From assembly GCA_951812725.1 (NCBI GenBank), contig OX638330.1, forward strand, positions 2,046,001 to 2,110,000: a DNA stretch of 64,000 nt. The letters are read 5' to 3'. The notes beneath the pieces were generated by a model. It had not been told where the DNA came from, did not search any database, and worked only from the letters and a program-made list of their open reading frames with translations. The position numbers and the translations under genes were made by a program. The DNA comes from an uncultured Caldilineaceae bacterium (lineage in GTDB: Bacteria > Chloroflexota > Anaerolineae > Caldilineales > Caldilineaceae). Below are positions 3,666 to 62,884 of this stretch, one piece after another (within the stretch, counting starts at the first letter, position 1; every line of letters starts with the position of its first letter).

Positions 3666-4299
3666 AGTGTGAGTGAGAGGAGTTCCCACACTACACAGTC
3701 GCTTCGAATTGCTCCTCTGTGCTTGGCCGTGAGGCAGCAGGAACAGTTGCAGGTCTTATGCGTTGGGTCAGCATGAATTCCAGGCAGAATATAGGATTCG
3801 ATGTTGAATTGCCCATGTAGTGCCCGTCTAGGGGACTGCTGGGCAATGGAGGAAAGCCGGTCCCTCTTAGCCCGATGGTAACTACTAAGCCATATATTGT
3901 GCTTTTCTTGACCCGCCCTTTATCGCTGCCGCCACTAAGGCAATCTGATTGCGTATTCGGTTGGCGGCAGCCACGTTGCTGGAGCCGCACGGCTGGAATG
4001 CGCACACACGGTCGGTGAGGGATGGTTTTGGAGGGGGGCGTTGCGGGGGCGCAGCCCCTGCACAAGGGAGGGCGCTTGCGCCCGACCGCCAAGAAACAGA
4101 GAGAAAAGTGTAAGCAAGGGCGCTGGCTCGCCACTTTCAAGGTTGCGAGATTCTTGTTGCTTAGTGGTTACGAAACTACTTTGTGGTAGGGGGCGCCCTG
4201 CCATTACGGATGCGAGAAAGAAGAGTGTGCTTTTTGTGCTATAAGGAATTCGATGCCGAATTTGGACTGATCACGGCGAATCAGGGTACAATGTAGGTT
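3666..4299. other. Intergenic region carrying repeat copy A
   Basis: 634 bases between fhs and the SNF2 gene. Apart from the repeat (3878-4171) there is a 6-bp inverted repeat just after fhs (AGTGTG/CACACT at about 3665-3695), possibly a weak transcription stop, and a -10-like TACAAT at 4287-4292 right before the helicase start. Open reading frames here lie inside the repeat and do not look like proteins. Confidence 0.6.
3878..4171 (+). repeat. Dispersed GC-rich hairpin repeat, copy A
   Basis: The conserved core is 4009-4088, bounded by inverted CGGTCGG (4009-4015) and CCGACCG (4082-4088). It contains hairpin GGGGC-GCA-GCCCC (about 4046-4057) and a terminal hairpin GGGCGC-TT-GCGCCC (4070-4083). 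The same core recurs at 25516-25593 and 62585-62664. The left edge GTAACTACTAAGCCA (3878-3892) is identical to the left edge of copy C. In this copy only, GCTTAGTGGTTAC at 4159-4171 mirrors the left end with one mismatch in 13, giving terminal-inverted-repeat-like ends and a total of 294 bp. The stretch between left edge and core has diverged from copies B and C. No coding capacity; best described as a MITE- or REP-like element. Confidence 0.75.
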
Positions 4300-25301: not shown

Positions 25302-25829
25302 AAAGCAGAGTGAAATTCGGGTCGAGACTTGCGTAGAGAAGTCCGCCCGGACTCCCATGGGGGAATTACGATTGAGGTGATTTGAGAATACTAAAACTGC
25401 TTAGCCACAGTTCTTGACCAGCCAGTCATCCTTGAAACCATTGAGGCGCATAGTGACGTATCTGGAGTACAGCCGCCGCCATGCTCGCCAGCCGACACGT
25501 TGAAATGAAGACACACGGTCGGTGAGCGATGGTTTTGTAGGGGGCGTTGCGGGGGCGCAGCCCCTGCACAAGGGAGGGCCGAAGGCCCGACCGCCCATAT
25601 GATGTTCGACAAGGTATAGCACAAAGGGGATAGTTGCCGTTAAAGCATTGGGCATTGAGGCGCGGCTGCGGCGCTTGGGGCGTAATTGAATACAGCCGGG
25701 TTGCTGCAATTATTCCGGACAGGGGGCTGCTGAGGATAACTTTCGACACCACCGGTGGCTACTGAATCGTAGGAGCTTGGATATCAGGAAGTGGGCGGTA
25801 GGGAATGGGTTTACTAAGGTGTACAGGCA
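25302..25829. other. Intergenic region carrying repeat copy B
   Basis: 528 bases between the SDR and the DUF5695 gene. The repeat occupies 25394-25593. The remaining 230 or so bases before the next start show no ORF with protein-like composition and no clear promoter. Confidence 0.6.
25394..25593 (+). repeat. Dispersed GC-rich hairpin repeat, copy B
   Basis: Core 25516-25593 bounded by CGGTCGG (25516-25522) and CCGACCG (25587-25593), with the GGGGC-GCA-GCCCC hairpin and a terminal hairpin GGGCC-GAA-GGCCC (25576-25588). The 122 bases to the left align without gaps to copy C (62463-62584), with about 19 mismatches counted by eye. The loop and stem differ from copies A and C, yet pairing is preserved. 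Confidence 0.85.
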
Positions 25830-62368: not shown

Positions 62369-62884
62369 GGAGTCCGTTTGCAGGCGATTCACTGGAGCGC
62401 CCAGTCGCAGTCCCTGCGGCACAGGTAGTGTATTTGGATATCTCTAGTTACACATTCGGTCGTAACTACTAAGCCACAGTAGTTGACCAGCCAGTCATCC
62501 TTGGAACCATTCAGGCTCTTGATGACGCAACTGGTGTACAGCCGCCGTCATGCTCGCCAGCCGACACGTTGCGAAGAAGGCACACGGTCGGTGAGGGATG
62601 GTTTTGTAGGGGGGCGTTGCGGGGGCGCAGCCCCTGCACAAGGGAGGCCGCTTGCGGCCGACCGCCCAAAATACAACAATGCTGGGGAGAAAGAATACCT
62701 TTTCTCGCCTCGTTCAGGGTTGCGTATCAGTTGCGGTTGAGGAGTTTCATTCAGTCTATAGATGCAGGACCCGGGGCGGTGCTTCGGAGCTAGTCGAAAT
62801 ACAAAGTAGCGTGGGTATTGCGCCGCCCGGTCGTTCAGCTGGTCGCGGATTTCTCAACCAACGACACTTGCTCAGTTAGTCTCA
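62369..62884. other. Intergenic region carrying repeat copy C
   Basis: 516 bases between convergent HMG-CoA synthase and mfd. The repeat covers 62462-62664. The rest holds short frames without protein-like composition and no clear terminator. Confidence 0.6.
62462..62664 (+). repeat. Dispersed GC-rich hairpin repeat, copy C
   Basis: Core 62585-62664 bounded by CGGTCGG (62585-62591) and CCGACCG (62658-62664), with the GGGGC-GCA-GCCCC hairpin and a terminal hairpin GGCCGC-TT-GCGGCC (62646-62659). The left 122 bases align gaplessly to copy B. The first 15 bases GTAACTACTAAGCCA are identical to the left end of copy A. Confidence 0.85.

Follow-up and report, generated by a model that had tools for sequence, protein, structure and literature searches.

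A MITE with a conserved hairpin core and a replication-linked orientation in an uncultured Caldilineaceae bacterium, compared with known polar and mobile repeats

Among the palindromic repeats of bacteria, REP depends on RAYT, and we know of no strict replichore orientation described for REP/BIME, Correia, RUP or BOX. AIMS represent polar sequences of the leading strand (for the definition see PMC5993296), and for Tn7 with TnsE as well as for IS200/IS605 insertion is oriented by the replication fork (PMC5371812). Here, an intergenic repeat of an uncultured Caldilineaceae bacterium is described, whose near-uniform orientation relative to replication is unexpected for an ordinary transposon. A literature search, which covered few subscription journals, found no paper describing IS66 MITEs in Chloroflexi or intergenic repeats that are oriented by replichore.

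The window, which is the whole stretch of 64,000 nucleotides that was analyzed (contig OX638330.1), contains three copies. An earlier note, made from these letters alone, had described three intergenic copies in one shared orientation; all of them were found in place, and their three hairpin alleles read letter by letter as it gave them. The copies consist of the following features, HP1 and HP2 being the two hairpins of the core.

3878..4171, + strand: copy A, a complete MITE bounded by TIRs (left TIR GTAACTACTAAGCC at 3878-3891, right TIR TGCTTAGTGGTTAC at 4158-4171)
4033..4090, + strand: core of copy A, HP2 allele GGGCGC-TT-GCGCCC
25392..25596, + strand: copy B, a decayed MITE (left TIR degenerate, AAAACTGCTTAGCC; right TIR not recognizable, lost)
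25539..25596, + strand: core of copy B, HP2 allele GGGCC-GAA-GGCCC
62454..62461, strand not applicable: left 8-bp target duplication of copy C, ATTCGGTC
62462..62748, + strand: copy C, a complete MITE of 287 bp (left TIR GTAACTACTAAGCC at 62462-62475, right TIR GTTGCGGTTGAGGAGTTTC at 62730-62748)
62608..62667, + strand: core of copy C, with HP1 GCGGGGGC-GCA-GCCCCTGC, spacer ACAAGGGA, HP2 GGCCGC-TT-GCGGCC and closing GGGC/GCCC
62749..62756, strand not applicable: right 8-bp target duplication of copy C, ATTCAGTC, one mismatch to ATTCGGTC

Details of the earlier description had to be revised. The end of copy C, previously set at 62664, lies at 62748 with the right TIR and is followed by the 8-bp duplication. 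Also the closure by CGGTCGG/CCGACCG is not a fixed feature, since many genomic copies carry GGTGGCTAGCCAG or other left flanks; the strongly conserved part of the repeat runs from AGGGGGGCG to GACCGCC. Copy A is flanked by GCCCGATG and GAAACTAC, and its target duplication is no longer present.

The 22-base centre of the core, GTTGCGGGGGCGCAGCCCCTGC, has 432 matches at up to three mismatches in the 5.95-Mb genome (291 forward, 141 reverse), compared to none for its reversed control. The hundreds of copies that had been predicted from three are thus present, and the genome search proposed along with that prediction returned far more than the three of the window. Searching the whole genome with copy C yielded at least 40 near-full-length copies (40 of the 417 candidates were scored). 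In an alignment of genomic copies, intact ones are about 285–295 bp long and run from GTAACTACTAAGCC to GGCTGAGTAGTTAC. Perfect 8-bp direct duplications flank many MITE copies, the genome-wide census of flanks being a one-third systematic sample.

Outside the window, the genome harbors six identical IS66-family elements of 1,569 bp, each encoding a transposase of 501 aa (TnpC-only). Their 14-bp TIR is identical to the MITE TIR, and they show 8-bp duplications as the MITE does. Since TIR and duplications are common to both, the repeat, a short non-coding element with TIR pairs that are seen also in the window copies A and C, is securely a MITE, and hence the non-autonomous mobile element that the earlier note had considered. 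Its statement on the absence of a transposase is correct for the window and fails for the genome; of the transposases with matching ends that it proposed to look for, the Y1/REP type was not found and an IS66-family element with the same TIR is there. This anatomy gives good support to dispersal by IS66-type transposition, and the IS66-family element is the likely recombinase; from the identity of TIR and duplication length, its transposase would mobilize the MITE in trans. An IS66 transposase was not detected in five core-rich relatives with at least 20 cores each (G001, G003, G006, G010 and G015), therefore the MITE may originally have been driven by something other than the present IS66.

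The core carried within the MITE comprises about 55 bp with the two hairpins. Over about 40 bases, from AGGGGGGCG to AAGGGAGG, the identity per position is 0.98–1.00 among 142 sampled copies. The left arms of most copy pairs are near the shuffled level of 0.47, and the arm identity between copies has no bearing on the identity of their cores. Perfect 22-mers are present in 132 of 143 sampled copies, and a tail of decayed cores is nearly absent. HP2 occurs in three main alleles, which are unlinked to the arms; at 80–87% arm identity, allele sharing is 0.37 vs. 0.515 expected. This indicates that copies exchange or convert their cores, or that allele changes are recurrent. HP1 has a separate allele, GCGGGGGCGGAGCCCCCGC, in the other species of the genus. 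A KOPS-like octamer was rejected as a conserved part of the core, since GGGAGGGC is found in some alleles only and not across alleles. Tandem cores about 200 bp apart were observed in seven of the sampled stretches (L071, L089, L106, L113, L143, L157 and L165), where they are joined by a unit beginning with GGAACTGCAGTGGTCAGTGG just after or inside the hairpins of the preceding core.

Every allele folds into one closed two-hairpin structure, with z between -2.2 and -4.7. Among 25 distinct sequences, standard pairs occupy 98.7% of the pair cells, compared to 96.5% in shuffles. The covariation score of this set is higher than in all 500 shuffles, yet double changes are present in two pairs only, and 81 of the 500 shuffles match that. 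The covariation of the hairpin, to which the earlier note had drawn attention, is therefore a genuine pattern insofar as both sides do change together, but it rests on few, recurring alleles unlinked to the flanks and is thin as statistical proof.

The main feature of the repeat, which the earlier note could not have seen, is its polarity with the replication strand. The orientation relative to replication was analyzed in 100 evenly spaced stretches of 20 kb (2 Mb; L067–L166), with GC skew as proxy for fork direction, gene calls from a simple dicodon script and, in a sample, copy age estimated by arm similarity. In these stretches, the sign of the GC skew predicts the orientation of the core. 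In clean, strongly skewed domains, the G-rich strand lies on the leading strand in a ratio of 103:0 copies, which is a description, as the domains were drawn post hoc from skew and core orientation jointly. An independent replication of the polarity is given by a second chromosome and by other species. In the complete chromosome OY282376.1, the copies fall into two blocks, those between 0.11 and 2.68 Mb being minus and all others plus, with three exceptions among the 100 copies listed. In the relatives, local skew and copy orientation agree in 94 of 101 cases, in a table whose nine labels stand for about seven species and in which a few places are perhaps counted twice.

Within clean domains, this polarity is shared by all of the 13 youngest copies (13:0). 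Random insertion followed by slow purging, as an age gradient would suggest, was therefore rejected; the gradient is gone in undisturbed domains. Discordant copies are confined to regions of weak or repeatedly flipping skew at 0.53–2.0, 3.45–3.66 and 4.9–5.7 Mb. Skew and element orientation switch jointly at about 0.54, 0.95, 1.19, 1.65 and 2.0 Mb, and the joint flips at 0.53–2.0 Mb are either recent inversions or assembly errors. The spacing of the cores is more even than random, with a variance/mean of 0.46 per 20 kb when tandems are merged (about 0.8 in G150). Toward the terminus, no consistent rise in density was seen by eye in this genome and the second chromosome.

The polarity is independent of genes and is not found in ISs. 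Genes show no strand bias (539 on the leading strand, 532 on the other), and 158 of 274 neighboring genes lie on the element's own strand, by which gene direction was dismissed as the cause of core orientation. Autonomous ISs in clean domains are mixed, 8:5 (five of them IS66, the other eight from a PF01609 family of 308 aa; Fisher p=8e-6 vs. the MITE), and the five IS66 copies with the TIRs of the MITE are oriented 3:2, in a small sample in which the IS66 copy at 3.414 Mb was counted as clean-domain though it lies 14 kb beyond the set edge. The second IS family, the 308-aa PF01609 matches, has about 11 copies in the genome, with unbiased orientation.

The MITE is not the only polarized repeat. 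After masking of the cores, 64 of 66 copies of the non-coding dispersed families were in the majority orientation of their family vs. 46 of 60 for coding families. In the sample L067–L166, the non-coding module TTTTTGTCCGCGGAGG follows replication 61:0, the GTGGTCAGTGG repeats 42:0 and, within skewed stretches, the TTGTCTGAATCAGGATT repeats 10:0; the polarized families, including the MITE-like element described next, are not all independent, as some adjoin cores or form part of each other's elements. A mixed orientation (4:3) was seen for a long IS-like repeat. Furthermore, another MITE-like element, unrelated to the first and about 400 bp in length, was observed, with the ends GTTGACATTTTGGGAAGG... 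and ...AGACAAACGTCAAC (GTTGAC...GTCAAC) and TIRs that differ from those of the first MITE. It occurs in L069, L084, L091, L097, L101, L107, L110 and L113, with no copy in the window, and is oriented 13:0 in skewed stretches. Because unrelated non-coding repeats are polarized too, the polarity has a cause that is not peculiar to insertion by IS66. GC composition alone was likewise discarded as the cause, since polarity is seen also in low-G modules and in the second MITE, and coding G-rich octamers are less biased.

Within the genus, a 37-base core was found in 10 of 16 other sampled species, three of which have one or two copies, whereas none of 133 genomes of other genera contained it. The named relatives with the core, among the matches listed, are all Caldilineaceae MAGs. 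The core is thus confined to one Caldilineaceae genus among the genomes searched, and since it is missing from six of the 17 species of this genus, it is dispensable.

The best reading of these results, to which we would give a probability of about one half, is an IS66-driven MITE with an AIMS-like polar core that is retained in the leading-strand orientation only. Here, an IS66-family DDE transposase would act in trans on the GTAACTACTAAGCC ends and thereby spread the MITE, and survival would be limited to copies in which the G-rich strand of the core is the leading strand (G excess; lagging-strand template). The core may be or contain a polar sequence like AIMS, KOPS or Chi, or may be harmful in the opposite orientation, and wrong-way insertions would be lost early. 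Selection and/or gene conversion among copies would keep the core near-identical while the transposon arms decay, and the G-rich, hairpin-forming core could be the sensed feature, as in the proposal for AIMS (PMC5993296). That selection brings about the polarity, and that the core has any role in the cell, is inferred. Since the IS with identical ends is unpolarized and the polarity is common to unrelated repeats, transposase and TIRs alone cannot easily explain it, which favors retention in one orientation. On the other hand, the blocks at 0.53–2.0 Mb must oppose one possible fork direction, unless the assembly is wrong there, and their toleration strains the idea of a strongly harmful wrong orientation. 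Also the species of the genus with no core, or with one or two copies, speak against this reading, and against its AIMS part speaks that a density rise toward the terminus, defining for AIMS, is not consistently seen by eye.

The main rival to retention is an orientation set at insertion, in which the ends or the core of the MITE touch the replisome (for example the beta clamp, or through hairpins of the lagging-strand template), so that the fork orients integration and selection is needless. Such a mechanism would account for the uniformity of the youngest copies, and discordant copies found only in rearranged or weak-skew regions would fit old copies inverted together with their segment, as would blocks that persist where the polarity of the segment seems changed. 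Precedents exist in Tn7 TnsE, IS200/IS605 and clamp-binding transposases (PMC5371812). Nevertheless, the IS66 copies with the same TIRs and also another IS family are mixed, polarity is found likewise in unrelated repeats whose TIRs are different or absent, and a simple pattern search of the 501-aa TnpC revealed no QL[SD]LF or QxxLxF clamp motif; orientation at insertion is considered less likely than retention. Replication-linked copying of single-stranded DNA, by template switching on the lagging strand or annealing of Okazaki-type fragments, would spread oriented repeats and interconvert cores. This would be in line with several unrelated non-coding modules being polarized and ISs not, with HP2 alleles shuffled across backgrounds and with the cores in tandem, but many polarized copies are true TIR elements with perfect 8-bp duplications, a DDE signature, and no mechanism of such kind is established for the dispersal of whole elements; we consider it distinctly improbable.

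A folded regulatory or structural RNA, whose fold would be under selection after transcription of the core, could explain the stable structure common to all alleles and the retained pairing. The orientation, however, tracks replication and not the adjacent genes, a search of the repeat against Rfam at gathering and permissive thresholds gave no credible match, and double changes are restricted to the two pairs mentioned; selection on a folded RNA, as the earlier note had suggested, is thus unsupported and very improbable. Its other suggestion, a REP-like family, would involve palindromes of the REP/BIME kind moved by a RAYT (Y1) transposase and would suit a GC-rich, hairpin-forming, intergenic repeat with hundreds of copies. 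This is largely refuted by the TIRs and 8-bp duplications of intact copies and by zero Y1_Tnp matches in the genome, the control being positive in five of 14 reference genomes.

Beyond the retained MITE, it is possible, as a tentative extension, that the non-coding mobile repeats of this genus carry a long polar signal, the ultraconserved core spread by the MITE being used, or only tolerated, in the leading-strand orientation. If this is true, a domesticated transposon family would build and renew the polarity of the chromosome, and several unrelated repeat families would be under the same rule.

In comparison to the known systems, the repeat shares with IS66-family ISs and derived MITEs the TIR and the 8-bp target duplication, and its genome contains a matching IS66 with TnpC only. 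In contrast to the IS, the MITE has a core, whose conservation far exceeds that of the arms, and is polarized with replication. REP/BIME, Correia, RUP and BOX resemble it in being dispersed, palindromic, non-coding and present in high copy number, but the RAYT of REP/BIME is absent from this genome. As for Tn7 TnsE and IS200/IS605, fork direction is mirrored in the orientation of the MITE; unlike these, it is a DDE-type TIR element with an unpolarized autonomous partner, and no Y1 transposase was found. With AIMS, KOPS and Chi it has in common a strong leading-strand bias, G-richness, hundreds of copies and conservation, and it differs from them by a core of about 55 bp that is structured, transposon-borne, exclusively intergenic, without a consistent rise toward the terminus (by eye), restricted to one genus and lacking in some species of that genus. 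Work on the polarity of replication strands usually deals with octamers, whose bias is statistical. Here, a long, countable element of a single genus shows one polarity with practically no exceptions where regions are undisturbed, and its putative parent IS does not, so that orientation at insertion and sorting by selection become directly testable against each other, and the orientation of the element can be read as a record of earlier fork direction and of inversions in uncultured genomes.
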